A stretch of 42,180 bases of DNA. Source: Flavobacteriaceae bacterium. GTDB lineage: Bacteria > Bacteroidota > Bacteroidia > Flavobacteriales > Flavobacteriaceae. The translations under genes were made by a program, and so were the position numbers. The notes beneath the pieces were generated by a model, which worked only from the letters and a program-made list of their open reading frames with translations, was not told the origin of the DNA and made no database searches. Positions 19,636-34,265 of the stretch are shown here, one piece after another. The DNA lies in assembly GCA_030830005.1 (NCBI GenBank), contig JAURNV010000030.1, positions 1-42,180 of the forward strand, given 5' to 3'. Each line of letters opens with the position of its first letter. The stretch's first letter is position 1.

Positions 19636-19680
19636 CACTTTTTTGTCAGTTTTAATTCATTTATCGTTTTTTTTTATACT

Positions 19681-19714
19681 TTTGTTTAATAATGTTATAA
19701 AAACATTAAACAAA
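19681..19714 (+). promoter_or_regulatory. Operator dyad overlapping the MerR/B12 regulator start
   Basis: TTTGTTTAAT (19681-19690) and ATTAAACAAA (19705-19714) form a perfect 10-bp inverted repeat with a 14-nt spacer. It contains a second, nested repeat (AATGTT, 5 nt, AACATT). The left arm overlaps a -7-like box (TACTTTTG, 19677-19684) and the right arm ends on the first base of the regulator ATG. The same dyad with the same spacing occurs at the photolyase operon promoter. Autoregulation is inferred. Confidence 0.7.
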
Positions 19715-20619
19715 TGGATCGCGTTAAAAACAGCTTTAGTATAAAAAACCTTGAACATCTTTCAGGTATCAAAGCACACACGATTCGCATATGGGAGAAA
19801 AGATATAATTTGTTTGAACCTGAACGTTCAAACACAAATATCAGGCTCTATGACCTTGAAAATCTGCAAAAACTACTCAATGTCACTTTGCTTTACAATA
19901 ACGGCTACAAGATTTCTAAAATAGCCAAGTTTTCACAGCAAGAAATAAAAGAAAACATCCACAACCTTACCATAAACAAAAAAGCTGATGATTGGTCAAT
20001 AGGTTTATTTAAGCTTGCAATGATTAATTTTGATCAGCGCCTTTTCACTAAGACATTTAATGAGCTTTTAGATCAATTTTCATTTAAAGAGATTTTTAAA
20101 AATGTTTTCGTCCCACTAATGAATGAGTTGGGCGTCCTTTGGCAAACGAATTCTATAAGTCCTTCACACGAACACTTTATAACTAGTCTTATAAAGCAAA
20201 AAATACACGCTATGTGTGAAGAACTACAACTGCAAGAAACCAAAAGAACAGATAGGCGATTTGTTTTGTTTTTGCCTGATAATGAAATTCACGAATTAGG
20301 ACTTTTGTATTTGCAATATGAAGTCTTGAACAACGGATTCCAATGTGTATTTCTAGGACAATCGGTACCTATTCAAAGTCTTAATAATCTTGTAGATATT
20401 GGCGAACCCATTACTTTCATCTCCTACTTTACGATAGAGCCTACTCCAGAAAAAATTGATGCTTATTTAAGCGCTTTTCATTCTGAAATAATAAATAGTA
20501 TTGAAAGTGAATTTTGGGTTCTAGGATACCAAACACAATTCATAAAAGAGAAACTCCCAGAAAAAATTCACGCTTTTCGTTCTATTGATAAAGTAGTTGA
20601 AATGCTGAACACTGTTTAG
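19714..20619 (+). CDS. MerR-family regulator with B12-binding domain (CarH/LitR-like light sensor)
   Basis: The 301-residue protein has an N-terminal MerR DNA-binding domain (about 8-75; IKNLEHLSGIKAHTIRIWEKRYNLF) and a C-terminal cobalamin domain. In the helical cap, W143 followed nine residues later by E153-H154 matches the W-x9-EH signature that cradles adenosylcobalamin in CarH. E191-x-H193-x-x-G196 is the B12 motif that supplies the lower axial histidine. CarH proteins bind DNA in the dark as tetramers and release it when light breaks the Co-C bond. The gene is followed by crtB and crtZ, the classic target set. Its start overlaps an operator-like dyad. Light sensing is inferred from these residues. 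Confidence 0.9.
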   Translation: MDRVKNSFSIKNLEHLSGIKAHTIRIWEKRYNLFEPERSNTNIRLYDLENLQKLLNVTLLYNNGYKISKIAKFSQQEIKENIHNLTINKKADDWSIGLFKLAMINFDQRLFTKTFNELLDQFSFKEIFKNVFVPLMNELGVLWQTNSISPSHEHFITSLIKQKIHAMCEELQLQETKRTDRRFVLFLPDNEIHELGLLYLQYEVLNNGFQCVFLGQSVPIQSLNNLVDIGEPITFISYFTIEPTPEKIDAYLSAFHSEIINSIESEFWVLGYQTQFIKEKLPEKIHAFRSIDKVVEMLNTV

Positions 20620-20632
20620 TTAAATCTAAACA
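20613..20632. promoter_or_regulatory. Short dyad between the regulator and crtB
   Basis: TGTTTAG (20613-20619) and CTAAACA (20626-20632) form a perfect 7-bp inverted repeat with a 6-nt spacer. It covers the stop codon of the regulator gene and lies about 65 nt before crtB. The TGTTTA core is shared with the two long operators, but the half-site distance is 10 bp shorter. No T-run follows, so it does not look like a terminator. Confidence 0.35.
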
Positions 20633-20696
20633 TTTCTAGTTTCCCTTTTAAACCTATTGTTTTTTTCTGTTATATTTACATCAACCAAAGCAAAAA

Positions 20697-21536
20697 ATGA
20701 AGACGCTATTTGATAATGTCTCACATCAATGTAGTAAACTTGTAACGGAGTCTTACAGCACTTCTTTTTCACTTGCTGTTAGAATGCTTTCTACAGAAAT
20801 TCGTCAAGATATTTATAACATATATGGTTTTGTTCGTTTTGCTGACGAAATTGTAGATAGTTTTCATAACTACGACAAACCTGTTCTTTTTGAACGGTTT
20901 GAAGAAGCTCTCGACAATGCACTACTCGACAAAATTAGTCTTAATCCAATTCTAAATAGTTTTCAAGAAACCGTACATCGATACGACATCAACCGTGAAT
21001 ATATTAATGCATTTATGAATAGTATGCGTTGGGATTTATCTAAAAAGATGTACGATACCGAAGCTGATTACAAAGAATATATTTATGGCTCTGCTGATGT
21101 TGTTGGACTAATGTGCTTAAAAGTATTTGTGAAAGGGAATGACAAGCTCTTCCATTCATTAAAAGATTCTGCAATGAGTCTTGGTTCAGCTTTTCAAAAG
21201 GTCAATTTTCTTCGTGACCTAAAAGCAGATTACGATCACTTAGAGCGCAAATATTTCCCTAACATTGATTTAAACGACTTTGACGAGGCGTCAAAACAAA
21301 AAATCATAGCAGAAATCGAAGCTGATTTTAGTGCAGGGCTTTCTGGAATATTTCAACTTCCTGATGATGCAAAATTCGGAGTTTATACCGCTTACAAATA
21401 CTATATGCGCTTACTCAAGAAACTAAAACGCATACCCTCAACTCAAATAAAATCTAAGCGCATCAGAGTTCCTAACTACCAAAAGGCAGATGTATTGGCT
21501 CGCTCTTTTATTCGATACCGCTTTAACATTCTCTAA
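20697..21536 (+). CDS. crtB: Phytoene synthase
   Basis: This enzyme condenses two geranylgeranyl diphosphates into phytoene, the first committed step of C40 carotenoid synthesis. The 279-residue protein has both Asp-rich metal sites: D50-EIV-D54 and N170-FLRDLKAD178. It also has YSTSFSLAVRML near the N-terminus and GSAFQKVNFLRD. A TATATTTA box lies 18 nt before the ATG with no good -33. crtZ follows after 8 nt, while crtI, which usually lies beside crtB, is not here. Squalene synthase is less likely because of the crtZ and CarH-like context. Confidence 0.92.
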   Translation: MKTLFDNVSHQCSKLVTESYSTSFSLAVRMLSTEIRQDIYNIYGFVRFADEIVDSFHNYDKPVLFERFEEALDNALLDKISLNPILNSFQETVHRYDINREYINAFMNSMRWDLSKKMYDTEADYKEYIYGSADVVGLMCLKVFVKGNDKLFHSLKDSAMSLGSAFQKVNFLRDLKADYDHLERKYFPNIDLNDFDEASKQKIIAEIEADFSAGLSGIFQLPDDAKFGVYTAYKYYMRLLKKLKRIPSTQIKSKRIRVPNYQKADVLARSFIRYRFNIL

Positions 21537-21544
21537 TTAAATTC

Positions 21545-21991
21545 ATGAGTATTTTAGCCCAAATTTTAGTTTTTCTTGTCACTTTTTCCATAATGGAATT
21601 TATGGCTTGGTTTACACACAAATACGTCATGCATGGGTTTTTATGGACCATACATAAAGACCACCACAAGAAAGATCATGACTCATGGTTTGAGCGCAAT
21701 GATATATTCTTTATTTTTTATGCATTGGTTAGTGCTGGGTGTGTAATTTTGTGGGGAGAATATAATTTTGTTCCTGGACTTGCAATTGGCATTGGTATTT
21801 TCGCATATGGATTGGCCTATTTTTTGGTTCATGATATCTTCATCCATCAACGGTTTAAAATTTGGCGAAACGCTGATAATCGTTATGCTCGCGGTGTACG
21901 CAGAGCACATAAGATTCATCACAAACATCTTGGAAAAACAGATGGAGAATGCTTTGGAATGCTTTGGGTGCCGCTTAAATACTTTAAATAG
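21545..21991 (+). CDS. crtZ: Beta-carotene 3-hydroxylase
   Basis: This di-iron membrane enzyme hydroxylates the beta-ionone rings, making zeaxanthin from beta-carotene. The 148-residue protein has the full histidine-box set: H25-x4-H30, H37-x2-H40-H41, H96-x4-H101 and H122-x2-H125-H126, between hydrophobic helices at about 4-22, 53-71 and 78-96. It is in the same transcription unit as crtB. Its 3' end overlaps the convergent ribH by 8 nt. Confidence 0.93.
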   Translation: MSILAQILVFLVTFSIMEFMAWFTHKYVMHGFLWTIHKDHHKKDHDSWFERNDIFFIFYALVSAGCVILWGEYNFVPGLAIGIGIFAYGLAYFLVHDIFIHQRFKIWRNADNRYARGVRRAHKIHHKHLGKTDGECFGMLWVPLKYFK

Positions 21992-22451
21992 AAAGTTGCG
22001 CCATTTGTATGGCTGCAGCTGCGGCTTCTTTCCCCTTATTACCTAATGCACCTCCGCTTCTTGCTTTAGCTTGCTCTAGAGTATCGTCAGTTAATACTCC
22101 AAAAATAACAGGTGTCATTCCAAGTAGGTTTAACTCCATAATTCCATTAGAAACAGCTTGGCACACATAATCAAAATGTGCCGTCTCGCCTCTAATGACA
22201 CTACCTATAGCAATAACTGCATCAAATCCAGATTGAATAGCATATTTACAACCATATATAAGCTCAAAACTTCCGGGAACGTCTATACGTGAAATATTAT
22301 TACACCCTTTCGCCTCTAAAACTTCCTTAGCGCCATTAAATAAACTTTCGGTAATAGGGTAATTCCACTGGGACACAACAATAGCCACACGAAGTCCTTT
22401 AGCATCTGGGATGCTAGTTAAATTCAAGTGTCCGTGCTGGGCGGTAGCCAT
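21984..22451 (-). CDS. ribH: 6,7-dimethyl-8-ribityllumazine synthase
   Basis: This enzyme makes lumazine, the direct precursor of riboflavin, and usually forms an icosahedral shell. The 155-residue protein has VAIVVSQWNYPITESLFNGAKEVL, the substrate loop DVPGSFELIYG, AVIAIGSVIRGETAHFDYVCQAVSNGIM with the catalytic His, and a C-terminal GNKGKEAAAAAIQM. The gene starts 3 nt after the TPR gene on the same strand. Flavin supply suits the many FAD enzymes encoded nearby, but no direct link is shown. Confidence 0.96.
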   Translation of the reverse strand: MATAQHGHLNLTSIPDAKGLRVAIVVSQWNYPITESLFNGAKEVLEAKGCNNISRIDVPGSFELIYGCKYAIQSGFDAVIAIGSVIRGETAHFDYVCQAVSNGIMELNLLGMTPVIFGVLTDDTLEQAKARSGGALGNKGKEAAAAAIQMAQLSI

Positions 22452-22454
22452 AAT

Positions 22455-23210
22455 TTATTGTTGCGCTTGTGCTAATAGCACTTCAACATTAGTCGCTTCA
22501 TTTGATGAACCAAAATCCTGCTTAAGATTTTGTAGTAAGGTCAAAGCAGCCTTATTCTCATTTAATGACAATGCAACTTGAGCCCCTTTTAACAAAAAAC
22601 GAGGCGTTGTGATGTCATTATCAGAAAAAGAAGCCGCTTTTTTATAGTAGCCCAATGCATCTTCCAATTGATTTAATTCAACGAATGAATCTCCAATTCC
22701 GCCAAGTGCTAATGCACCCAATATAGGGTCTTCAGATGTAAATTTTTCTAAGAATGAAATAGCCTTATCAAATTGACCTAGTTGAAAATAAATCATACCA
22801 GCATTATAGGTTGCCAATTGAGCTGTATCTGAACTACCGTATTCATTCAAAATTTCAATAAATCCAGGAGCTACTCCATCTCCTTCCAAGGCTAAAGTAA
22901 ATAATGAGTCTTGAATAGTTGGATCCTCCAAACCCTCTTTGAAATAGGTTTGGGCTTGAGCAATAGCATTTGTAGATTCTTCATTTAGTGGTTTTGCCAC
23001 ATAATTTAGATACGCTAAATACGCCAAAACAATTACAACAATAGCACTTATAGTGGTTAGTATATAGTTTTGGTTACGAGCTACCCATGCCTCTGCCTTA
23101 CCTGCAGAGGTATCAAGTGTGCTAAATACTTCAGCGGTTACACTGTCTTGTTCTGGAATGCTATCTTGAGAAGATTTCACTTTACCTCCTCGTTTTTTGT
23201 ATGTTGCCAT
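22455..23210 (-). CDS. Membrane-anchored tetratricopeptide-repeat protein
   Basis: This 251-residue protein has a charged N-terminus (KKRGGKVKSSQDS), one transmembrane helix at about 50-70 (ILTTISAIVVIVLAYLAYL), and TPR-like helix pairs from about 80 to the end (YNAGMIYFQLGQFDKAISFLEKF, IGDSFVELNQLEDALGYYKKA). The layout resembles YfgM-type proteins that hold periplasmic chaperones, and in Flavobacteria it commonly precedes ribH. The partner is unknown. Confidence 0.85.
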   Translation of the reverse strand: MATYKKRGGKVKSSQDSIPEQDSVTAEVFSTLDTSAGKAEAWVARNQNYILTTISAIVVIVLAYLAYLNYVAKPLNEESTNAIAQAQTYFKEGLEDPTIQDSLFTLALEGDGVAPGFIEILNEYGSSDTAQLATYNAGMIYFQLGQFDKAISFLEKFTSEDPILGALALGGIGDSFVELNQLEDALGYYKKAASFSDNDITTPRFLLKGAQVALSLNENKAALTLLQNLKQDFGSSNEATNVEVLLAQAQQ

Positions 23211-23307
23211 ATCTAAAAGTTATGGTGGCAAAAATAAAATTTTTATTCCAATACCACCTTGCCGCGAAAATGTTTATTTTGTATGCTTGTTTAGCATATG
23301 ATTTTTC

Positions 23308-24396
23308 ATGAGCAACTTACGGCTAAATGCCTTACATATAACCCATTACAAAAATGTTTCTACAGCCGAATATCGATTTGAGAAACCTATACATTGCTTT
23401 GTAGGCCATAACGGAAAGGGAAAAACCAACACGCTGGACGCTATTTACCATTTGTCTATGGGGCGTAGCTACTTTTCTTCAATAAATGCCCATACAATCC
23501 AGCATACTGCTGATTTTATGAGAATTGAAGGACATTTTTTTAGAGAAGACAATATTGAGAGAGTTGAATGTCAATTAAAAAGAGATGAGCCTAAGGTTTT
23601 TATTCGAAATGGAAAAAAATACGCAAAACTTTCAGATCATATTGGGCTATTGCCCACGGTAATGATTTCTCCATCAGATGTAGATTTAATTAATGAGGGA
23701 GGGCAAACACGCCGAATTTTTATTGATCGGCTTATTGGACAAGCAGATAAAGTGTATTTACAACAACTCATCCAATACCAGAAAATTTTACAGCAACGCA
23801 ATGCATTACTCAAACAAATGGGGCAATTTGCGCAAAACATTCACGAAACACTAAGTATCTATAACCAACAATTAGCTCAACTTGGAGTTCCTATCCATAA
23901 TGCAAGAGTACGTTATTTGGCATCTTTTGAGCCACTTTTTCAAAAACGCTATGCTACAATTAGTAGCGGAAATGAAAATGTTGGCCTGATTTACCATAGT
24001 CAATTATTAGATGAAGATTTTAATGTCTTATTAGAAAAAGCTACAAAAAAAGACATTCAGGCTCAATTTACCACTGTGGGCATACACAAAGACGACCTTG
24101 CATTTGAAATTGATGGATATTCCATGAAAAAGTTTGGAAGTCAGGGTCAACGCAAGTCTTTTTTAATCGCCTTAAAACTTGCTCAGTTTGACATGCTAAA
24201 AAAGTCAACCTCAGTAACTCCATTACTCCTTCTCGACGATATTTTTGACAAACTAGATGAGCAACGTGTAGCTGAAATAATAAATTTAGTTCATGAGTCT
24301 TCCTTTGGTCAACTCTTTATTACAGATACCCACCCCGAACGCACTGCCAATGTTATCAAACAAACCGAACAACCTTTCGAAATTCATAGGCTATGA
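23308..24396 (+). CDS. recF: DNA replication and repair protein RecF
   Basis: RecF is an SMC-like ATPase that helps load RecA at single-strand gaps through the RecFOR pathway. The 362-residue protein has Walker A GHNGKGKT at 33-40, the RecF segment TVMISPSDVDLINEGGQTRRIFIDR, a central helical arm, the ABC signature SQGQRKS and Walker B LLLLDDIFDKLDE near the C-terminus. It starts a unit with two overlapping downstream genes, ending in the DUF721 gene. Confidence 0.96.
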   Translation: MSNLRLNALHITHYKNVSTAEYRFEKPIHCFVGHNGKGKTNTLDAIYHLSMGRSYFSSINAHTIQHTADFMRIEGHFFREDNIERVECQLKRDEPKVFIRNGKKYAKLSDHIGLLPTVMISPSDVDLINEGGQTRRIFIDRLIGQADKVYLQQLIQYQKILQQRNALLKQMGQFAQNIHETLSIYNQQLAQLGVPIHNARVRYLASFEPLFQKRYATISSGNENVGLIYHSQLLDEDFNVLLEKATKKDIQAQFTTVGIHKDDLAFEIDGYSMKKFGSQGQRKSFLIALKLAQFDMLKKSTSVTPLLLLDDIFDKLDEQRVAEIINLVHESSFGQLFITDTHPERTANVIKQTEQPFEIHRL

Positions 24397-24791
24397 AAAG
24401 TTACCATTTAACCTTCCTTTTTCTTTTGGTTTGCTGCACAACACAAATAGAAAAAAATGACATCAAACATCTTCATGGGTATTGGATGATCGATCATGTC
24501 ATTGCTCCAAATAATGAAAAACGGGCTTATATTGGTGCCGATGAAGTTGATTTTTTTGAGGTTGACAAATTGAAAGGCTTTCGAAAAAAAGTAAAGCCCC
24601 AAAATGATATCTTTTTCAGCAACTCAGACCATGTGGATTTTTCAATTGCCTTTGGAGAAAAGAATCCGTTAATAGTATACGAAAAAAACCAAACGAAATG
24701 GCAAGAAGAAGTTGTTGCGCTCAACACATCAGTGCTTGAATTAAAAGATGAGCGGGGGGTTATATTCGTGTACAAAAGATATCGACCATGA
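24393..24791 (+). CDS. Small lipoprotein, lipocalin-like
   Basis: The 132-residue protein starts with a lipoprotein signal (FLFLLVCC). The remainder is beta-rich with a GYWMIDHV strand start and an ELKDERGVIFVYKRY end, the look of the small lipocalin-like family common in Bacteroidota. Its ATG overlaps the recF stop codon (ATGA), and its own stop overlaps the next start in the same way. Function is unknown; its place between recF and DUF721 may reflect only compaction. Confidence 0.7.
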   Translation: MKSYHLTFLFLLVCCTTQIEKNDIKHLHGYWMIDHVIAPNNEKRAYIGADEVDFFEVDKLKGFRKKVKPQNDIFFSNSDHVDFSIAFGEKNPLIVYEKNQTKWQEEVVALNTSVLELKDERGVIFVYKRYRP

Positions 24792-25084
24792 GCAAACGAG
24801 AAGACGAACCAAAAAACATTGGAGAAGTCCTACGCCAAATTACCAAATATAATAAACTCCAAAAGGGATTAGACAATGTTAGGGCTGAAGTACTTTGGGC
24901 TAAACTTTTAGGCCCTGGTGTACAAGCCTATACTTCTTCTGTCCGATTGGTAGGAGATATTCTTTACGTAGACCTTACTTCTTCAGTTCTTCGGGAGGAG
25001 CTGAAATACGGTTCGGATAACATTATTACTATGCTCAATGAAGGGCTCGAAAAAGCTTGTATAAAAAAATTGGTTTTACGTTAA
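24788..25084 (+). CDS. DUF721 (DciA-like) protein
   Basis: This 98-residue protein contains the DUF721 core: [34 protein letters not shown], then [30 protein letters not shown]721 defines DciA, which helps load DnaB in bacteria without DnaC or DnaI. Its position two genes after recF echoes the recF-dciA order of Actinobacteria. It may therefore serve the DnaB encoded at 9294-10808; that link is inferred. The stop TAA lies within a TTAA that also ends ndk on the other strand. Confidence 0.85.
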
Positions 25085-25500
25085 AATTGCTCTGTGGCAG
25101 AAAAGTGAAATGCACTTTCTAAAGCTGCATTTTCATCGCTATCAGAACCGTGAATCGCATTTTCACCCATAGAAGTAGCAAATAACTTACGGATTGTTCC
25201 CTCAGCAGCTTCGTTAGGATTTGTAGCACCAATAAGAATACGAAAATCGTTTACAGCATTTTCTTTTTCTAATACAGCGGCCACAATAGGGCCACTTGTC
25301 ATAAATGAAACCAATTCATTAAAAAACGGACGCTCACTATGAACAGCATAAAAAGCTTCAGCATCGGCTTTGGTAAGTTGAGTCATTTTAAGTGCAACTA
25401 TTCTAAAGCCGGCACCAGCAATTTTGCCTAGTATAGCACCAATATGACCATTAGATACCGCATCGGGTTTAATCATGGTGAAAGTACGGTTTGTCAACAT
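25081..25500 (-). CDS. ndk: Nucleoside diphosphate kinase
   Basis: This enzyme balances nucleoside triphosphate pools by phosphate transfer through a histidine. The 139-residue protein has [52 protein letters not shown] with the catalytic His of NAIHGSD, and an acidic end. I use the ATG of MLTNRTF; the frame extends 12 codons further (MFNFIRF), but the family starts here. A TAGGTTTG box lies 14 nt upstream at 25515-25522 without a correctly spaced -33. Confidence 0.95.
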
Positions 25501-25563
25501 CAATATTTTTTTTGCAAACCTAATGAAATTAAACAAACACTCATCAAAGTAGTGACTTATTCG

Positions 25564-25571
25564 TAATTTTG
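25564..25571 (+). promoter_or_regulatory. -7 element 4 nt from the DUF2520 gene start
   Basis: TAATTTTG fits the -7 consensus and ends exactly 4 nt before the ATG at 25576, which predicts a leaderless mRNA. No -33 TTG is seen at normal spacing. Confidence 0.4.
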
Positions 25572-25575
25572 AAAA

Positions 25576-26331
25576 ATGATCAGAGTAGCTCTTATTGGAA
25601 CGGGAAATTTAGCTGTACATATACTTAAAGCTCTTGAGAACCATGATGGTGTTACTTGTGTACAATGGATAGGAAGAAAACGCTCACCTTCCCTTCAATC
25701 TTCAACTCCTTACTTTTCGAAGTTCCAAAAGGATATAAAAACTGATGTATGTCTTATAGCGGTGTCTGACGATTACATTAAAATTGTTGCTCAGCAATTT
25801 TCTGACACAAAAATACTTGTTGCCCATACTGCTGGAGCCGTTGATTTAAGTTGTTTAGAACCAATAAAACGAAGAGGTGTGTTTTATCCTCTTCAAAGTT
25901 TTTTAAAGAATATTCCTGTTAATTGGGAAGAAATTCCCATTTGTGTAACAGCTGAAAATGAAGCAGACCTTAAAATATTGGAATCGCTTGCTAAGTGTCT
26001 GAGCAACGAAATATATGTTCTTACGGAAAACCAACGCTTACATATGCATACTGCGGCCGTGTTTGCGAATAATTTTTGTAATCATCTCTTAGGGATTAGC
26101 CAATCTATTTGCAAAAAAGCAAACGTTCCCTTCTCAGTATTAAAACCCCTAGTTGAAGAAACTTTCAATCGAACTTTCAAACATTCTGCCTTGAAGTTAC
26201 AAACGGGGCCAGCTAAAAGAAACAACCTTAAAACGCAAGAGAAGCATCTCACGCTCTTATCTGATAAAGAAGTCGATCTTTACCAAAGCTTGAGTCATTC
26301 TATTTTAAACACACATAAAAATGAGCTATAA
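25576..26331 (+). CDS. Rossmann-fold and DUF2520 domain protein
   Basis: This 251-residue protein starts with a nucleotide-binding GTGNLA motif (residues 8-13), like ketopantoate reductases and pyrroline-carboxylate reductases, followed by [12 protein letters not shown] and [13 protein letters not shown]. The C-terminal half (about 125-250) is the helical DUF2520 dimerisation domain ([17 protein letters not shown], then [16 protein letters not shown]). An NAD(P)-linked reductase role is likely, but the substrate is not known. Its stop overlaps the next start by 11 nt, and DUF2520-KdsC-like-Maf is a recurrent order in Flavobacteria. Confidence 0.87.
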
Positions 26332-26848
26332 AGAAGAATTACGTTGCATCACCACTTTTGTTTTCGATGTAGATGGAGTATTTACTGATGGAGGCATAAC
26401 TATTTTGCCTGATGGTGAAATGGTCCGAACCATGAACACAAAAGACGGTTACGCTGTAAAAGCTGCGCTTTATGCTGGTTTTAATGTGGCGGTTATTTCT
26501 GGGGGCACTAATGAGGCAGTGCGTCTTCGACTGCAGCAACTTGGCATAAACGATGTGTATTTGGGTGCACACCAAAAAGAAAAGATACTACATGAATATG
26601 CAGATAAGCATCAACTTTCCTTCGACGAAATACTTTTTATGGGCGATGACATTCCTGATATTTCTTCTATTAAAATGGTTCGACTAGGTTGTTGTCCAAA
26701 CGATGCAGTTCCAGAAGTGTTGGCTGCAGCAAACTATATTTCTCACAAAAATGGCGGTAAGGGTTGTGTCCGTGATGTAATTGAACAGGTGCTTAAAGTA
26801 CAGGGTAAATGGGGTACGCTTACAGAAGCGCGTAACGATAGCAAATGA
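26321..26848 (+). CDS. KdsC-like HAD phosphatase
   Basis: This 175-residue protein is a HAD hydrolase of the KdsC (YrbI) type: FDVDGVFTDGGI with D16 and D18 as nucleophile and acid/base, NTKDGYAVKAALYAGF, VISGG, and DEILFMGDDIPDI for magnesium. KdsC releases phosphate from KDO 8-phosphate in lipopolysaccharide inner-core synthesis. The tetrameric, cap-less form fits this length. Whether the substrate is KDO 8-phosphate or another sugar-acid phosphate cannot be told. Confidence 0.88.
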   Translation: MSYKEELRCITTFVFDVDGVFTDGGITILPDGEMVRTMNTKDGYAVKAALYAGFNVAVISGGTNEAVRLRLQQLGINDVYLGAHQKEKILHEYADKHQLSFDEILFMGDDIPDISSIKMVRLGCCPNDAVPEVLAAANYISHKNGGKGCVRDVIEQVLKVQGKWGTLTEARNDSK

Positions 26849-27411
26849 CATATAAGTTGTTTTTAGGTTCAGGGTCGCCACGCCGTGTGGAGCTTCTCAC
26901 TCAAATGAATATTCCTTTTGAACAGCGTGTAGTAGACGTAGACGAAAACTACCCAAAAGAATTAAAAGGAGCTGAAATCACAGCTTTTTTGGCTAAGCTT
27001 AAGGGAAAAGCTCAGCAAGACATGTTACTACCCAACGAGGTAGTACTTACAGCCGATACTATTGTATGGCATGAGGAAACCGCTCTTGGAAAACCCAATA
27101 CCATTAATGAAGCCAAAACGATGCTGATGTCACTCTCTGGAAAAACCCACGATGTAATAAGCGCCGTATGTTTAACAACAAGAGACGAACAAAATTGCAT
27201 AAGTGCTACAACAAAGGTCACTATGCGTAAAGTATCCAAAAATGAAATCTTGAGCTATGTTGAAACCTACAAACCTTTAGACAAAGCAGGTGCCTATGGA
27301 ATTCAAGAATGGATAGGGCTTGTAGGGGTTACAGCTATTGAAGGGTCATATACGAATGTTGTGGGTTTACCCACGCAAGAAACTTACTGTCTTTTAAAAC
27401 CTTATCTATAA
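26845..27411 (+). CDS. Maf-family nucleoside triphosphate pyrophosphatase
   Basis: Maf proteins hydrolyse non-canonical or modified nucleoside triphosphates and can slow septation. The 188-residue protein has LGSGSPRRVELLTQMNI, the ADTIVWHEETALGKP metal/catalytic segment, LMSLSGKTHDVISAVCL and DKAGAYGIQEW. The lack of extra Cys or bulky residues suggests the dTTP/UTP (YhdE-like) branch. The start overlaps the KdsC-like stop (ATGA). Confidence 0.92.
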   Translation: MTYKLFLGSGSPRRVELLTQMNIPFEQRVVDVDENYPKELKGAEITAFLAKLKGKAQQDMLLPNEVVLTADTIVWHEETALGKPNTINEAKTMLMSLSGKTHDVISAVCLTTRDEQNCISATTKVTMRKVSKNEILSYVETYKPLDKAGAYGIQEWIGLVGVTAIEGSYTNVVGLPTQETYCLLKPYL

Positions 27412-27442
27412 ATTATTTAACCTTTAGCTAAACTTACATTGT

Positions 27443-27450
27443 TATTTTTG
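27443..27450 (+). promoter_or_regulatory. -7 element 4 nt from the aquaporin start
   Basis: TATTTTTG ends exactly 4 nt before the aquaporin ATG at 27455. The -33 is not recognisable. It belongs to the same leaderless class as four other genes here. Confidence 0.4.
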
Positions 27451-27454
27451 TGTC

Positions 27455-28114
27455 ATGCAACTACGAACTTCTCTTTATGCTGAATTTATTGGAACCTTTG
27501 CCATGGTTTTTTGCGGTACTGCTGCTATGGCCGTAAATGAAACTTCTGGAGGAGTTAGTCATGAAGGCGTTGCCATCACTTGGGGACTAATTGTCATGGC
27601 AATGATTTATGCCTTTGGCGAATATTCAGGGGCGCATTTTAACCCCGCGGTCACTCTGTCGTTTGCACTTGCAAACCGATTTGCATGGAAAAAAGTCCCC
27701 GCCTATATTATTACACAGATAATAGGCGCAATAGTAGCCAGTGTGGCAGTTAAGGCACTACTCCCCCAAAGTGATTATATAGGAGCAACCATACCCACTG
27801 TTACGCATATGAGTGCCTTCTGGATAGAATTATTACTCTCGTTTTTCTTAATGATTACCATTTTACAAATAAGTACAGGAAGTAAAGAGATTGGTCCCGT
27901 TGCTGGATTGGCTGTTGGAGGCGTAATATTATTAGAAGCCATGTTTGCAGGGCCACTAACCAATGCATCTATGAATCCGGCGCGGTCTCTGGGTCCTGCA
28001 CTTATCGGAAATCATTGGGAACCTATGTGGATTTACTTATCCGCTCCCTTTGTTGGTATGGCACTAGCAACACTGATATTCAAATTTTTTGTACCTTCAA
28101 ATAATGGAAATTAA
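27455..28114 (+). CDS. Aquaporin (MIP family)
   Basis: This 219-residue channel has six hydrophobic helices and both half-helix signatures: SGAHFNPAVT in the first half and ASMNPARSLGPAL in the second, where the Arg after NPA belongs to the selectivity filter. Length and the lack of the longer glycerol-facilitator loops favour a water-selective AqpZ-type channel. Its end overlaps the SdpI-family gene by 11 nt. Confidence 0.9.
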   Translation: MQLRTSLYAEFIGTFAMVFCGTAAMAVNETSGGVSHEGVAITWGLIVMAMIYAFGEYSGAHFNPAVTLSFALANRFAWKKVPAYIITQIIGAIVASVAVKALLPQSDYIGATIPTVTHMSAFWIELLLSFFLMITILQISTGSKEIGPVAGLAVGGVILLEAMFAGPLTNASMNPARSLGPALIGNHWEPMWIYLSAPFVGMALATLIFKFFVPSNNGN

Positions 28115-28445
28115 TTCTGCAATAGTGGTTTGCCTACTGTGTGGTCTTATCTATTTAATTCTAGGATGGGCGATGAAAAAATTTCCGCCTAAAAAAATTA
28201 ATGATTATTATGGCTACAGAACTCGTCGCTCTAAAATAAGTCAAAAACATTGGGATTTTGCACAAAAAGAGTCTGTAAAACATATCATTCAAGCGGGGTA
28301 TTACAGCATCCTTTGCAGCTCCCTTTTTATTTTATTTCCTTTTGAAGAATCTCACGTTTGGATAGCAGTTACAATAACCACCTTATTACCCTTAATTTCT
28401 GTTATTCAAACGGAAAAAGCATTAAAAAAGAAGTTCGAAAGTTAA
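28104..28445 (+). CDS. SdpI-family membrane protein
   Basis: This protein of about 113 residues (MEINSAIVV start) has three hydrophobic helices. Between the first two is the SdpI-type motif KINDYYGYRTRRSKISQKHWDFAQK. In Bacillus, SdpI gives immunity to the SdpC toxin, but most family members have no known role. A frame start at 28089 would add five residues. The left arm of the light-operon operator begins at its final base. Confidence 0.8.
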   Translation: MEINSAIVVCLLCGLIYLILGWAMKKFPPKKINDYYGYRTRRSKISQKHWDFAQKESVKHIIQAGYYSILCSSLFILFPFEESHVWIAVTITTLLPLISVIQTEKALKKKFES

Positions 28446-28493
28446 TTTTGTTTAATGTTTTAATTGAAAGATTAAACAAAATAGGTATATTTG
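28445..28493 (+). promoter_or_regulatory. Operator and promoter of the photolyase operon
   Basis: A perfect 12-bp inverted repeat, ATTTTGTTTAAT (28445-28456) and ATTAAACAAAAT (28471-28482), has a 14-nt spacer. It shares its inner 10 bases and its spacing with the dyad at the MerR/B12 regulator gene. A canonical promoter is interleaved with it: TTG at 28464-28466 lies in the dyad spacer, 19 nt follow, and TATATTTG sits at 28486-28493. A protein bound to the dyad would block RNA polymerase, so repression in the dark by the CarH-like protein is the simplest model. Confidence 0.75.
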
Positions 28494-28510: not shown

Positions 28511-28969
28511 ATGTACCAATACGTCGCCAAACAAGAACTTAACACCACTCAAGATTTAGCTTGGGAATTTTTATCTGACCCCAAAAATCTCAAAAGAATT
28601 ACCCCTAGTTATATGGGGTTTGATATTATTAGCGGGGCGGAGCGGAAAATGTATCCCGGACAAATCATTCAATACAAGTTAACCCCTATTTTAAGGATTC
28701 CCTTCAGGTGGGTAACTGAAATTACTCATGTTAAAGAGGGGGATTATTTTGTAGATGAACAACGATTTGGCCCCTATGTTTTTTGGCATCACAAACATTT
28801 TATCAAAAAAACCACCTCTGGAATAATAATGGAAGATATTGTAGACTATAAACTCCCTTTAGGACCGCTTGGATGGCTTGCTCACAAATTGTTTGTGAAA
28901 AATAAGGTAAAACAAATTTTTGTTTACAGAGAGAAAGCATTAAATGAAATTTTTAATCCCACCATATGA
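28511..28969 (+). CDS. SRPBCC-family ligand-binding protein, photolyase-linked
   Basis: This 152-residue protein has the SRPBCC fold of COG4276: an N-terminal strand and helix (LNTTQDLAWEFLSDPKNLKRITP), MYPGQIIQYKLTPILRIPFRWVTEITHV, FGPYVFWHHKHF, and DIVDYKLPLGPLGWLAHKLFVKNKVKQIF. The family is found near photolyase genes in many bacteria, sometimes annotated as a cell-division inhibitor on weak grounds. It likely binds a hydrophobic ligand; none is known. It is the first gene after the operator promoter, and its stop overlaps the SDR start (ATGA). Confidence 0.85.
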   Translation: MYQYVAKQELNTTQDLAWEFLSDPKNLKRITPSYMGFDIISGAERKMYPGQIIQYKLTPILRIPFRWVTEITHVKEGDYFVDEQRFGPYVFWHHKHFIKKTTSGIIMEDIVDYKLPLGPLGWLAHKLFVKNKVKQIFVYREKALNEIFNPTI

Positions 28970-29664
28970 ATAACTATCTACTTATTGGGGGAAGCTACGG
29001 TATAGGAAATAAACTCATCGATGAACTTCCTTCAAATGCAAATATTATTGTGGCCTCTAGGACTAACGAAGGACTTATTGAAAAAAATGTGAAACACATT
29101 CCTTTTAATGTACTGGAAGACTCTTTGACACTTGAACAACTTCCAGAAAAAATCGATGGATTTGTTTATTGTCCAGGCAGCATAAATTTACGTCCATTTA
29201 AGGGTTTAAAAGAAGATGCCTTTCGCGATGATTTTGAAATTAATGTCATGGGAGCGATACGTACTCTTCAGCAAGTTTATCCATTATTGGCTGCAAATGA
29301 GCAAGCAAGTGTTGTTTTATTTAGCACAGTAGCTGTTCAAACAGGGATGCCGTTCCATAGTAGTGTTGCTGCATCCAAAGGAGCTATTGAAGGATTAGGG
29401 CGTGCATTGGCAGCAGAATGGGCACCTAAAGTACGTGTAAATGTGATTGCTCCTTCAATATCAGACACTCCCTTAGCAAATCGATTTTTAAATAACGAAA
29501 GTAAACTAGAAAAAGCAAGCCTCAGACATCCACTAAAGCGCATTGGTACTGCAGAAGACGTAGCTCAATTAGCAGCATTTTTACTTTCAGAAAAAAGCAG
29601 CTGGATGACTGGTCAAGTACTTGGCCTTGATGGTGGTATATCTTCATTAAACACACAAGGATGA
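28966..29664 (+). CDS. Short-chain dehydrogenase/reductase lacking the catalytic Tyr
   Basis: The 232-residue protein is an SDR with the cofactor motif GGSYGIG (8-14), the N93 helix-4 Asn and S120. The YxxxK position reads V134-AAS-K138, so the catalytic Tyr is replaced by Val. The C-terminal GQVLGLDGG is normal. Membership of the family is clear; ordinary dehydrogenase chemistry is doubtful. It may bind NAD(P) without the usual reaction. Both ends overlap neighbours by ATGA, which ties it to the photolyase operon. Confidence 0.88.
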   Translation: MNNYLLIGGSYGIGNKLIDELPSNANIIVASRTNEGLIEKNVKHIPFNVLEDSLTLEQLPEKIDGFVYCPGSINLRPFKGLKEDAFRDDFEINVMGAIRTLQQVYPLLAANEQASVVLFSTVAVQTGMPFHSSVAASKGAIEGLGRALAAEWAPKVRVNVIAPSISDTPLANRFLNNESKLEKASLRHPLKRIGTAEDVAQLAAFLLSEKSSWMTGQVLGLDGGISSLNTQG

Positions 29665-30953
29665 TACTTTATTGGTTTCGTCGTGATTTACGTGAAACTG
29701 ACAACTCAGGTTTCTATCAAGCGTTGTGTGATGAAAAAGGTATTATTCCCGCATTTGTCTTCGACCAAAATATTTTAAACAAATTACCAAAAGATGATGC
29801 ACGCGTTGGATTTATTCATCAACAAATAGAGCGCTTACATCAAAAATTTACGTCGTATGGAAGCGGAATAATTGCTCAAAAAGGTGACCCGCTATCACTT
29901 ATTCCAACGTGGTGCAAAGCCTTTGGTGTTAAAGCTGTTTATACTAATGAAGATTACGAACCCTACGCAAGACAAAGAGACAGGCTTATTAAAGAAAAAT
30001 TAAATTCGCTAGGAATAAAATTTAAAACATTTAAAGACCAAGTTTTATATTCACCAAACGAAGTATTAAAAAAAGACGGCACACCCTACAAAGTTTATAC
30101 GCCCTATTCTCGTGTTTGGATAACAAAAATGGATGAACAAGGTGTTCCAAATTATCCCTCAGAAACACTACTCGACAACTTGCTCAAATTTGCACCTAAC
30201 AATATTCCTTCTCTCGAAGAAATGGGATTTAAAAATGGGCTTCATAATATCCCAGAGGGCATCACCACTATCGCTATGATGAATAACTACGAGGAAACTC
30301 GTAATTTCCCTGCGCTTAACAGCACAAGTCGCTTGGGCATTCACTTACGCTTCGGAACAATTTCAATTCGAAAATTAATTTCAAGAGCAAAAAAAAGTGC
30401 TGAAATAACCTTTTTGAAAGAATTGATATGGCGTGAATTTTTTATGCAAATTTTATGGCATTATCCACACACAACTACGACTAGTTTCAAACCTCAATAC
30501 GACCGAATTTCTTGGCGAAATAACGAAGAGGAATTCAAAAAATGGTGTGAGGGTAGTACCGGGTATCCGCTTGTAGATGCTGGAATGAGAGAACTTAACA
30601 AGACAGGATTTATGCACAACCGAGTACGTATGTTAGTAGGTAGTTTCTTGTGTAAACATTTACTAATTGATTGGCGTTGGGGCGAAGCATATTTTGCTGA
30701 AAAACTTCTCGATTATGAACAGGCAAGTAATGTTGGAAATTGGCAATGGGTAGCAGGTTGTGGCGTAGATGCAGCTCCCTACTTCCGTGTATTCAACCCT
30801 ACCGAGCAAGTAAAAAAGTTTGATAAAAATCACGAGTATATCAAAAAATGGGTGCCAGAATATCAATCACTAAATTACCCCGCTCCAGTAGTAGAGCATA
30901 CTAACGCACGAAAACGATGCTTGGCAACTTATAAAGAGGCACTCACAACATGA
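29661..30953 (+). CDS. Class I deoxyribodipyrimidine (CPD) photolyase
   Basis: This enzyme uses blue light and reduced FAD to split cyclobutane pyrimidine dimers. The 430-residue protein has the N-terminal antenna-binding domain ([13 protein letters not shown]) and the FAD domain ([46 protein letters not shown]). The electron-transfer Trp triad of E. coli photolyase is kept as W285, W338 and W361, and the Asn near FAD N5 as N357 in ASNVGNWQW. The substrate-stacking Trp is W257. Start and stop both overlap neighbours by ATGA. Confidence 0.94.
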
Positions 30954-31096
30954 GAGGCGTAAAGAAAGAATATCTGCCTCAAAAAAAATGCCCTAGCTGT
31001 GAACGCCCTTTTGTTTGGCGTAAAAAATGGCGCAACAACTGGGAAGCTGTAATTTATTGTAGCGAACGATGCAAAAGAAAAAAACAACAGGATTAG
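30950..31096 (+). CDS. DUF2256 small zinc-ribbon-like protein
   Basis: This 48-residue protein is encoded between the first photolyase and the Cry-DASH gene. It has [16 protein letters not shown] and [12 protein letters not shown], giving C14-x2-C17 and C37-x3-C41, a likely zinc site. The pattern is that of DUF2256, a family found almost only beside photolyase/cryptochrome genes. Its ATG overlaps the photolyase stop, and its last 28 nt overlap the Cry-DASH start. Function is unknown; a photolyase accessory role is inferred from context. Confidence 0.9.
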
Positions 31097-32367
31097 TTTG
31101 GTTCAAAAACAACCTTAGAGTGCGAGACAACAAAGCTCTTCATGAAGCAGTAGTTCAGCACGAAAAGGTTGTAGGAATTTACCATTTGCCAAAACATTGG
31201 ATTGAACAAACACCCTGGGGATTTAAAAAAATGGAGCGATTCCGTGCGCAATTTTTGATTGAAACACTTACACAACTTCAAAAAGATTTGGCAGCTATAA
31301 ACATCTCCCTTTGGGTAACCTTAGGGGATTGGAAAAGAACAATTGTAGAACTACAAGATCAGTTAAACGCTAAAGACATCTACTCACAAAAAGAATGGAC
31401 GCAAGAAGAAGTGGAAGAAATAAATGAAATCCCAAAAAGCTTAAAAATTCATGCTTTTTACGATCAATTTTTGTTTCATCCGGATGACATTCCTATGAAG
31501 ACTACAAACATTCCTGAAGTGTTTACTGTGTTTCGAAAAAAATGTGAAAAGCACGCGGTCATAAGAAAACCTGTAGCTGTGCCCAGGGCATTACCCATGA
31601 ATAACGTACTGCAAAATGTTCCTAAAATACCAACCCTGTCTGATTTAGGCTATGAAAAAATAACACACGACTCACGAACTGTTATTCCATTTGTTGGGGG
31701 TGAAAAGGCCGCATGGGCACGTATTGAAGAATATTTTTGGGAAACACAGCAACTTTCTTTTTATAAAAAAACCCGTAACGGACTGTTAGGTAAAAACTAC
31801 AGCTCAAAGCTATCGCTTTGGTTAGGATATGGATCATTATCTGCACGTGAGATTTATGAACAAGTAAAAAGATACGAAGAAAATATCATTAAAAATGACT
31901 CTACTTATTGGCTGATATTTGAGTTGATTTGGCGCGACTATTTTAAATACATCTCTTTAAAACACGGCAACGCTATTTTTAAAATTGGAGGTGTTTTGAA
32001 AAAATCATATTCCTGGGATTCGAGCAAATCACGCATTCAAAAATGGATTGAAGGAAACACTCCAGAACCTTTTGTAAATGCAAATATGAGAGAATTAGCC
32101 ACCACAGGGTTTATGAGTAATCGAGGAAGGCAAAATGTTGCAAGTTTTTTTAGTAAAGAATGGCATTTAGATTGGCGTATTGGCGCAGCTTATTTTGAAG
32201 CAATGCTTGTTGACTATGACGTACACAGCAATTACGGCAACTGGATGTATAACGCAGGAGTCGGAAATGACCCTCGTGACAGAAAATTTAATATTGCATG
32301 GCAGGCAGAACGGTATGACCCGAAAAATGCCTATCAAAAAACATGGTTACAAACAACCTTATTCTAA
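31069..32367 (+). CDS. Cryptochrome DASH
   Basis: The 432-residue protein has the photolyase N-terminal domain ([21 protein letters not shown]) and the FAD domain with [32 protein letters not shown] and [24 protein letters not shown]. The segment [19 protein letters not shown] near the C-terminus is diagnostic of Cry-DASH. These proteins repair cyclobutane dimers in single-stranded or looped DNA and may also signal. The start lies inside the DUF2256 gene, and the stop overlaps the next ATG (TAATG). Confidence 0.93.
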
Positions 32368-33896
32368 TGGAGGCTAGACTCATACTTGGTGATCAATTAA
32401 ACATAAATCATACTTGGTTTACAGAACTTAACAATGATGTTTGTTATGTCATGTTTGAAATGCGTCAAGAAACAGACTATGTAAAGCACCACATTCAAAA
32501 AGTAGTAGCTTTTTTTGCTGCTATGCGAACCTTTGCAAGACAATTAGAGCAAGATGGGCACATAGTGATTTATTACACCATCAACGACCCTAACAACACC
32601 CATAGCCTAGCAAAAAACATAGAAAAGGTGGTACAGCTTTTAGGAGCATCCTCATTTGCGTATCAATTACCAGACGAATATAGGCTAGACAAACAACTCC
32701 ATGATATTTGTAAAAATTTAGGGGTGACTACCAAAGCGCATGACACAGAACATTTTTTGACTTCACGAACCGAGTTGGCAGAATTTTATAAAGGAAAAAA
32801 ATCCTTAATAATGGAGTTTTTTTATCGATATATGCGAAAAAAACACCAATACCTTATGGTAAATAATCAGCCAGAAGGCGGTAGCTGGAACTACGATAAG
32901 TTTAATCGAAATACTTGGAAAGGCGGAAAAATACCCCAACCCTTTAAGCCTAATGCAATTTTAGCAAATGAAATTTATCCACAGGTAAAAGCAGCAAAAA
33001 TAGACACTATTGGTTTGTTTGATGGCGACAACTTTTTGTTTGCAGTTTCAAGAACTGAATCTTTAAAACAACTCAACTACTTTTGTGAGCACCTATTGCA
33101 GGATTTTGGCACCTATCAGGATGCTATGCATCAAGACGAAACCAACCTATTTCATGCGCGTATATCGTTCAGTTTAAACGTTAAACTTCTTAGCCCTGAC
33201 GAGGTTATTGAATGTGCTATTGCAGCTTTCAGAAGAGAAAATACCAAAATTAGTTTATCACAAATAGAGGGGTTTGTGCGTCAAATTTTAGGTTGGCGAG
33301 AATATATCCGTGGGCTTTATTGGAAAGAAATGCCGCAATACAAGAACAAAAATGAATTAAACAACTTCGGAAAACTTCCCGAATTTTATTGGACAGGAAA
33401 AACCAAAATGAACTGCCTAAAAACCAGCATAAAAAACAGTTTGGAAAATGCCTATGCACATCATATTCAACGCTTAATGATTACTGGAAATTTCGCACTG
33501 CTCCTTCAAACACATCCCGATGAAGTAGATGCTTGGTATCTTGGCATTTATGCAGATGCTGTGGAATGGGTACAATTGCCCAACACAAGAGGTATGAGTC
33601 AATTTGCAGATGGTGGAATTTTAGCTACAAAGCCGTATGTGTCTTCGGGATCGTATATAAATAAAATGAGCAATTATTGTGCGCAATGCGCTTACGATAA
33701 AAAGAAAAGAACGGGTGTCGATGCTTGCCCATTTAACAGTCTATATTGGAATTTCTTAGACGACAAAAGAGAAGAATTACGCGGAAACAACCGCATGGGA
33801 ATGATGTACAACTTACTTGGCAAAATAAAGCCAGAAGAATTGGCAAAGATTAAGGAACGTGCCTATCAAATTATAGAAAACCCCGATGACTACTAA
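32367..33896 (+). CDS. Iron-sulfur bacterial cryptochrome/(6-4) photolyase (FeS-BCP)
   Basis: This 509-residue protein belongs to the FeS-BCP (PhrB/CryB) group, which repairs (6-4) photoproducts and binds FAD, a lumazine-type antenna and a [4Fe-4S] cluster. It begins [12 protein letters not shown] and contains EGFVRQILGWREYIRGLYW and MNCLKTSIKNSLENAYAHHIQRLM. The four cluster cysteines are C350, C438, C441 and C454, positions that coincide with those of Agrobacterium PhrB. The ATG sits in a TAATG with the Cry-DASH stop; a longer upstream frame is not needed. ribH, which makes lumazine, lies elsewhere in this window. Confidence 0.94.
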   Translation: MEARLILGDQLNINHTWFTELNNDVCYVMFEMRQETDYVKHHIQKVVAFFAAMRTFARQLEQDGHIVIYYTINDPNNTHSLAKNIEKVVQLLGASSFAYQLPDEYRLDKQLHDICKNLGVTTKAHDTEHFLTSRTELAEFYKGKKSLIMEFFYRYMRKKHQYLMVNNQPEGGSWNYDKFNRNTWKGGKIPQPFKPNAILANEIYPQVKAAKIDTIGLFDGDNFLFAVSRTESLKQLNYFCEHLLQDFGTYQDAMHQDETNLFHARISFSLNVKLLSPDEVIECAIAAFRRENTKISLSQIEGFVRQILGWREYIRGLYWKEMPQYKNKNELNNFGKLPEFYWTGKTKMNCLKTSIKNSLENAYAHHIQRLMITGNFALLLQTHPDEVDAWYLGIYADAVEWVQLPNTRGMSQFADGGILATKPYVSSGSYINKMSNYCAQCAYDKKKRTGVDACPFNSLYWNFLDDKREELRGNNRMGMMYNLLGKIKPEELAKIKERAYQIIENPDDY

Positions 33897-33986: not shown

Positions 33987-34265
33987 ATGAAAAAAGAACT
34001 TACAGAACAAGATATTGATCGCATCATTGAGATGGGCTGGGAAGACCGTACCCCCTTTGATGCCATTAAACTTCAATTTGGACTCAAAGAACAAGAAGTA
34101 ATTGACATTATGCGAAGCAACATGAAACTAAATAGTTTTAAGTTATGGCGAAAACGTGTTCAGGGTAGAAAAACAAAGCATGCTAAAAAACGTATCGAAG
34201 ACGTGGACCGTTTTAAATGCAGTAGACAAAGAAGTATAAGCAACAATAAAGTATCAAAACGTTAA
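33987..34265 (+). CDS. TIGR03643/DUF2805 family protein, photolyase-linked
   Basis: This 92-residue basic protein begins MKKELTEQDIDRIIEMGWEDRTPFDAIKLQFGLKEQEVIDIMR and continues SFKLWRKRVQGRKTKHAKKR. It matches the TIGR03643/DUF2805 family, which accompanies photolyase and cryptochrome genes. The N-terminal half looks like a helix-turn-helix and the tail is positively charged, so nucleic acid binding is plausible. It closes the operon. No experimental function is known to me. Confidence 0.88.
   Translation: MKKELTEQDIDRIIEMGWEDRTPFDAIKLQFGLKEQEVIDIMRSNMKLNSFKLWRKRVQGRKTKHAKKRIEDVDRFKCSRQRSISNNKVSKR

Follow-up and report, generated by a model that had tools for sequence, protein, structure and literature searches.

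The closest described relatives of the system reported here are the CarH regulators (class I LitR) of Thermus thermophilus, Bacillus megaterium and Myxococcus, which combine a MerR DNA-binding domain with the cap and Rossmann domains of a vitamin B12 module, carry a Trp, a Glu-His pair and a His ligand, and control carotenoid (crt) genes. Their operators are described as three or four 11-bp direct repeats of nAnnTnnACAn (PMC8156234). In Pseudomonas, according to PMC9758184, photolyase and folE are light-induced under the class II LitR proteins PplR and PmlR, whose regulon also holds a cryptochrome-like gene and whose cluster includes a short-chain dehydrogenase (SDR) gene. That CarH governs carotenoid genes, and that relatives of LitR place photolyase, cryptochrome-like and folE genes under light control in Pseudomonas, is therefore already known. 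In Vibrio cholerae, the MerR-like gene VCA0056 lies in a light-induced predicted operon with photolyase and works beside sigmaE/ChrR (PMC5241685). Here, we analyse a 42,180-nucleotide (nt) stretch of a Flavobacteriaceae genome (assembly GCA_030830005.1, contig JAURNV010000030.1, hereafter the window), in which the gene of a CarH-like MerR/B12 protein (merR) and an operon of photolyase genes share an inverted repeat, TTTGTTTAAT-N14-ATTAAACAAA (hereafter the dyad). We hold with good confidence that the dyad would be the operator of this protein, a CarH-like photoreceptor-repressor, and, on comparative evidence, one B12-type sensor very probably governs the genes for carotenoids, photorepair and proteorhodopsin (PR) as well as its own.

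Compared with the known systems, the flavobacterial half-site TTAAACA contains the TnnACA of the CarH half-site nAnnTnnACAn (PMC8156234), whereas the putative operator is made of two inverted half-sites lying 24 bp apart from centre to centre (N14, sometimes N15). The proposed regulon is wider than that of CarH and includes PR, and the position of CarH H132 is occupied by Gln. The resemblance to PplR and PmlR lies in the photorepair genes, folE and the SDR gene, while those proteins differ in that they are thought not to bind B12, act with a partner LOV protein and recognise T(G/A)TACA/TGTACA (PMC9758184). VCA0056 is likewise similar in its linkage to photolyase and different in its partnership with sigmaE/ChrR. 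No link to PR was seen for either of these systems, nor was a defined operator seen for VCA0056.

Both dyads in the window, already described in the initial annotation, are exact, with 0 mismatches over 20 arm positions at each site (Table 1), and at up to 3 mismatches no other TTTGTTTAAT-N14-ATTAAACAAA match occurs in the window. Shuffling the window 100 times gave a mean of 0.03 matches and never reached the two observed; a looser consensus recovered the same two sites against a chance mean of 0.24, with two reached in 4 of 100 shuffles. The 12-bp arms of the second dyad, previously placed at 28446-28481, span 28445-28482. The right arm of dyad 1 takes in the A of the merR ATG (19714) as its last base, and no TTG lies 19 nt upstream of the candidate -7 element of merR, TACTTTTG. 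At the photolyase operon, the TTG inside the spacer of dyad 2 and the -7 element TATATTTG are separated by 19 nt with the right arm between them, an arrangement for which the coordinates agree with the earlier description; TATATTTG fits what we take to be the Bacteroidetes -7 consensus, TAnnTTTG.

Conservation in close relatives was found at both genes. All 16 MerR rows of the genus, that of the own genome included, have the merR dyad, which ends at the ATG or one base into it; in G004 (79% complete) the MerR match is no more than weak and partial. The photolyase-operon dyad occurs in all 11 rows with an intact operon start; it lies 27-30 bp upstream of the ATG and has an N14 spacer in ten rows and N15 in one (G003). 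These 11 count out of 15, since G004, G012 and G013 lack the operon start on their contigs and G006 is a contig-end artefact. As to the earlier statement that there is no third full copy, it stands for the window, and the own genome (88% complete, 1.55 Mb) also has no third perfect dyad, yet degenerate copies matter there: one with 2 mismatches before PR, one with 3 before msrA and one with 3 before htpG. A further 3-mismatch match lies in G000:C24. The msrA dyad ends at the msrA ATG, with folE next, and scores at least 20 in 6 of 14 genus rows (own included, 3 mismatches). The htpG dyad of the own genome (L005) has counterparts at htpG in G017, G027, G028 and G034.

Across the family, the dyad follows the regulator. 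We searched 249 genomes both for MerR and for the dyad, with the same pattern read backward as control. At least one dyad was carried by 183 of the 186 genomes with a close MerR (E <1e-60), amounting to 719 sites against 20 in the control, compared with 14 of the 63 genomes without one (25 sites, control 7). Among these exceptions, 14 of the 25 sites fall in three genomes, and G118 and G186 are incomplete while G064 has a divergent MerR. Genomes counted as without a close MerR included 17 with matches at E ~1e-43 to 1e-52, 5 with weak matches and 21 with no match, the last taken as those in the dyad table that are absent from the MerR match table. In 22 genomes beyond the genus, the consensus WTTGTTTAAY-N14-RTTAAACAAW (at most 1 mismatch) gave 58 sites versus 2 in the control; G020, G021 and G032 (no MerR match) and G023 and G030 (36-37% identical MerR) had none of these dyads, and G049, with a MerR 37% identical, had two. 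By hand count, 9 of the 58 sites lie within ~1.1 kb of merR and 49 elsewhere, so physical linkage by itself does not account for the co-occurrence. Nearly all sites (57 of 59, the 22 genomes plus one own-genome site) lie outside predicted open reading frames of at least 60 aa.

The spacing is constrained as well. In 80 MerR loci (1.5 Mb), inverted half-site pairs number 27 at N14, 11 at N15 and no more than 5 at each remaining spacer length to 44, and in PR loci 36 at N14 and at most 6 at other spacers. Among the best 80 of 579 MerR relatives, an N14 dyad scoring at least 10 stands at the merR start in 63, and some of the others have N15. Cultured species with the site include Cellulophaga baltica DSM 24729 (L243) and Flavobacterium fryxellicola DSM 16209 (L258). 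The right arm there is mostly the coding start itself, ATG AAC AAT/AAC (Met-Asn-Asn; loci L214-L293), so that the merR operator is partly coding and, in these loci, operator and MerR N-terminus appear to be constrained together. CarH-type direct repeats are not supported as the main element, the inverted N14/N15 arrangement being dominant in these loci. In L214-L293, direct repeats of the half-site rise slightly at spacers 11 and 12 (8 each), perhaps reflecting extra half-sites.

The arms also change with the protein. Six genomes from four other families (G041, G043, G046, G050, G054 and G056; same order) have a MerR recognition helix of the form [TSPN]-K-[FLI]-[VNL]-[LI]-R-T-W-E-N-R-Y, versus K-A-H-T-I-R-I-W-E-K-R-Y. 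In their loci (58 kb), 12 dyads with arms TTTGTATAA/TTATACAAA (at most 2 mismatches) occur at N14, as against zero at each of the spacers 10-13 and 15-17, while the TGTTTA form gave three matches, each of them a 2-mismatch reading of a TGTATA site. These TGTATA dyads sit at merR, crtI, the SRPBCC gene, the SDR gene beside photolyase, and PR; targets and architecture are unchanged. The TGTATA arms were first seen by eye (merR of G041, G046 and G054; PR of G043) and then counted, so the independent part of the count is the six sites in L349, L350 and L352. In close-MerR loci (1.5 Mb, at most 2 mismatches), the TGTATA form gave 8 matches at N14 and 9 at N15. This second operator dialect, TTTGTATAA-N14-TTATACAAA, was seen in loci L351, L353, L354, L349, L350, L352 and L104. 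This covariation of arm letters and recognition helix is the strongest evidence on the binder and makes MerR very likely the protein that recognises the dyad. The proposal of the initial annotation, one CarH-like sensor for itself and the photolyase operon, gains support, as both the presence of the dyad and the letters of its arms track MerR.

The PR and retinal genes with the same site form the largest part of the picture and were absent from the initial annotation. The own-genome PR dyad (L003:1501-1534, that is G000:C31:14429-14462; 2 mismatches) lies outside the window, between the PR gene (Pfam Bac_rhodopsin 1.2e-37) and the divergent gene of the retinal-forming Brp/Blh beta-carotene dioxygenase (TIGR03753). 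All 16 PR-bearing members of the genus have a dyad 16-28 bp upstream of the PR start codon, with scores of at least 10 throughout and at least 15 in 13, from a matrix that was not trained on them (training sites came from outside the genus, without L190, L199, L206 and L208-L212). PR was matched in 61 of the 249 family genomes. Outside the genus, the PR upstream region scores at least 15 in 28 of 45 MerR-bearing genomes (at least 10 in 34 of 45), as opposed to 2 of 11 without MerR, both incomplete (81% and 73%), and 0 of 3 with a divergent MerR, one of which (G043) has the TGTATA form. In this tally G049 was placed in the divergent group; L346, a duplicate, was dropped together with G106 and G223, whose upstream sequence was too short, and the partial or weak PR matches of G143, G172 and G264 were left out. 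The contrast between genomes with and without MerR is real, not absolute. Among the 28 genomes scoring at least 15, 20 have 12-29 bp between the end of the dyad and the ATG, and 14 have a -7 box TAnnTTTG that starts at a constant position within the dyad (offset 16); the reverse strand has no such box. In many PR regions the putative operator thus encloses the core promoter, the arrangement that occlusion would predict.

The protein itself points to a B12 photoreceptor. It carries a MerR helix-turn-helix domain (PF13411, 2.5e-13), and the AlphaFold2 model (pLDDT 87, pTM 0.79) finds as its best PDB matches full-length CarH with adenosylcobalamin (AdoCbl), with and without DNA. Against full-length CarH (5c8d/5c8e), E starts from 2.2e-13 with TMq 0.51-0.59 and a root-mean-square deviation (rmsd) of 8-15 A, as the domain placement differs, while against the CarH cobalamin domain alone TMt rises to 0.86 with an rmsd of 2.7 A. 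Over 17 aligned sequences W143, E153 and H193 show no variation and H154 almost none, and the four align with CarH W131, E141, H142 and H177, described as key AdoCbl residues (PMC11796333). The same source gives the CarH light-response signature as GxxW, EH, GxxH and GxxxP; here G140-W143, E153-H154 and G215-P219 are present, and GxxH reads N190xxH193. The top NCBIfam match is the CarH equivalog NF052513 at 69.4 bits, below its cut-off of 400. The MerR/B12 protein is most likely a CarH relative that works like CarH, as far as residues and predicted fold can tell, which does not imply the same functional class.

In the mechanism that we propose, AdoCbl-bound MerR would bind both dyad arms in the dark and block RNA polymerase, and light would break the Co-C bond and release MerR from the dyad, as its fold, residues and site positions suggest. 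The dyads cover core promoters or start codons at merR, crt genes, the photolyase/cryptochrome operon, PR, msrA-folE and other stress genes, and we infer that repression works by covering one or the other. The onset of light would then jointly induce the sensor, carotenoid and retinal synthesis, the photorepair enzymes, folE, msrA and, in PR-bearing species, PR; folE may serve the pterin antenna of the photorepair enzymes and msrA the repair of protein damage.

We consider a broader proposition fairly probable, if less so than the assignment of the operator: in most Flavobacteriaceae with both genes, the B12 photoreceptor would govern the switching of PR along with photorepair and the synthesis of retinal and carotenoids, marine phototrophy would thereby be gated by B12, and the operator would be a new form, with inverted CarH-like half-sites, a fixed N14 around the promoter and arms coevolving with the recognition helix. 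Several observations weigh against a light-responsive, family-wide repressor. Three of the 186 close-MerR genomes have no dyad. At msrA, 7 of 14 genus rows have none and G009 a weak one (11.6). The genus PR dyads carry 2-4 mismatches each, confined almost entirely to the right arm. In 17 of the 45 MerR-bearing genomes beyond the genus the PR site scores below 15; in six of these the N14 score is below 5, and two of the six have an N15 dyad (14.9 and 15.4). Allowing spacers of 13 and 15 brings the genomes at or above 15 to 29 of 45 with MerR and 4 of 11 without. In the protein, Pfam recognises the helical B12 cap domain only and no Rossmann half, a half that is present in the predicted model. 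The Gly of GxxH is Asn, with the ligand His kept (Gly stands there in 2 of 17 rows), and the H132 position is Gln144. H132, a second cobalt ligand of T. thermophilus CarH after light, lies outside the signature. PR expression is reportedly constitutive in a flavobacterium, to go by the title of Riedel et al. (2010). The carotenoid genes of Chryseobacterium lacus are described as light-induced, though the authors of that report found no car/lit operon genes.

Among other explanations, the one that survives best, though we regard it as unlikely, is that MerR binds the dyad and senses another cue, be it B12 status alone, singlet oxygen or redox, or a partner photoreceptor. The changes of H132 to Gln and of GxxH to NxxH would suit it, and class II LitR in Pseudomonas offers a precedent, with light control through a LOV protein and one of two B12-binding domains kept (PMC9758184). 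Arguing for a CarH-like light sensor instead are the match of W143, E153, H154 and H193 to the key AdoCbl residues and the full CarH-like fold, including the Rossmann half, in the predicted model.

That MerR acts at the dyads mainly as an activator, like classical MerR proteins, is less probable still. The photolyase-operon dyad does overlap the -33/-7 spacer, the classical MerR place, but dyad geometry varies, the dyad being set at the -7 box of PR, at the ATG of merR and msrA, and around the -33 of the photolyase operon. Occlusion tolerates such variation and classical MerR activation does not, so the varied geometry counts against activation.

Much more doubtful is a different binder, such as the TetR_C_23 protein, whose gene starts within 400 bp of a dyad in nine genomes. 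Dyads occur in 42 of 43 genomes with a close MerR and no TetR-like gene versus 5 of 15 with the TetR-like gene and no close MerR, neither the own genome nor G003, both dyad-bearing, yields a match to the TetR-like protein, and the arms follow the recognition helix of MerR. Chance or promoter composition in an AT-rich genome, to which the AT-rich arms and the TTTG supplied by -7 boxes might lend colour, is next to impossible given 719 sites versus 20 backward-control sites, the rarity of dyads without MerR and the sharp N14/N15 spacing; it is refuted at the family level, although single weak sites may still be due to it.

The features of the window are collected in Table 1. The first photolyase-operon gene received no firm family name from NCBIfam or Pfam. 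The merR-crtB-hydroxylase cluster (19714-21991) is without crtI, which was not sought elsewhere in the own genome; L233 and L272 read merR-crtI-crtB-crtZ.

Table 1 Position and basis of the features of the window considered in this study
Feature	Position	Strand	Basis
Operator dyad 1 (putative), TTTGTTTAAT-N14-ATTAAACAAA	19681..19714	+	0 mismatches; same position in 16/16 genus rows
Candidate -7 element TACTTTTG, overlapping left arm of dyad 1	19677..19684	+	sequence; TAnnTTTG taken as consensus
MerR/B12 regulator, CarH-like, 301 aa; W143, E153, H154, H193	19714..20619	+	Pfam MerR_1 2.5e-13, B12-binding_2 3.5e-12; PDB CarH 5c8d 1.3e-12; CarH fold matches
Phytoene synthase (crtB)	20697..21536	+	Pfam SQS_PSY 2.6e-46
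Probable carotene hydroxylase of the fatty-acid-hydroxylase family (tentatively named crtZ)	21545..21991	+	Pfam FA_hydroxylase 2.6e-13
Operator dyad 2 (putative), 12-bp arms (10-bp core 28447-28480)	28445..28482	+	sequence
-33-like TTG within dyad 2 spacer	28464..28466	+	sequence
-7 element TATATTTG, photolyase operon	28486..28493	+	sequence; consensus as assumed above
First operon gene, SRPBCC/polyketide-cyclase-like, weak assignment	28511..28969	+	Pfam Polyketide_cyc2 only E 0.12
Short-chain dehydrogenase (SDR)	28966..29664	+	Pfam adh_short_C2 3.9e-39
DNA photolyase	29661..30953	+	Pfam FAD_binding_7 6.2e-76
DUF2256 protein, 48 aa	30950..31096	+	Pfam DUF2256 1.3e-18
Cryptochrome DASH	31069..32367	+	TIGR02765 3.1e-150, exceeds its cut-off
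Photolyase-related protein (DPRP; 'FeS-BCP' in the initial annotation)	32343..33896	+	Pfam DPRP 2.5e-71
DUF2805 protein	33987..34265	+	Pfam DUF2805 6.7e-37

Genes starting within 400 bp of the 59 dyad sites, counted as numbers of genomes, show what else may belong to the regulon. Fasciclin proteins and TetR_C_23 proteins recur in nine genomes each, crtI in seven, htpG in five (own included), a 142-aa protein, encoded within a few kb of photolyase genes, in five, and GLPGLI/Porph_ging proteins in three, with photolyase, cryDASH, SDR, folE, msrA, PR, TspO and a GHMP kinase as single cases. A tRNA-thiolation-like gene, an acyl-CoA dehydrogenase and a peptidase, named by eye, seem unrelated or just the divergent partner, and in 13 genomes one or more neighbours match none of the reference proteins used. 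Checked for many copies at unrelated genes, the dyad thus proved to recur beside light, carotenoid, photorepair and stress genes, with some neighbours unrelated or unexplained. In the Flavobacterium loci L273 and L287, the TetR_C_23 gene is clustered with DUF2805, SDR and folE. The fasciclin neighbours (L155, L156, L164, L169, L174, L179, L186, L189 and L192) are, jointly with TetR_C_23, the commonest outside the genus. Tandem dyad pairs 43 bp apart lie between a fasciclin lipoprotein gene and the tRNA-thiolation-like gene, the latter named by eye (L156:5007/5050 and L169:4844/4887), and pairs spaced 42-43 bp also occur in G073, G083, G146 and G207. Two further records, L254 and L267, bear the names Klebsiella pneumoniae and Rhizobium yet hold merR loci of flavobacterial type; they are probably mislabelled metagenome bins.

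Titles and abstract starts of the literature, searched with incomplete coverage, tied no CarH/LitR or MerR regulator to PR or to a flavobacterial photolyase operon and named no transcriptional regulator for flavobacterial PR. Within that literature, the inverted N14 operator, the family-wide regulon and the PR branch appear to be new. A comparative study describes photolyase genes as enriched in PR-bearing marine flavobacteria, an enrichment that a shared PR/photolyase operator would fit. Light stimulates the growth of some PR-bearing marine flavobacteria and not of others (PMC3587595), and transcription induced by light is reportedly described by Kimura et al. (2011). Having a candidate regulator, its proposed operator and a list of targets makes the control of PR testable. 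If true, these bacteria would have a light switch with a simple two-arm operator. Many such bacteria must get B12 from others, and the supply of B12 would, if our reading is true, be tied to phototrophy in the surface ocean.

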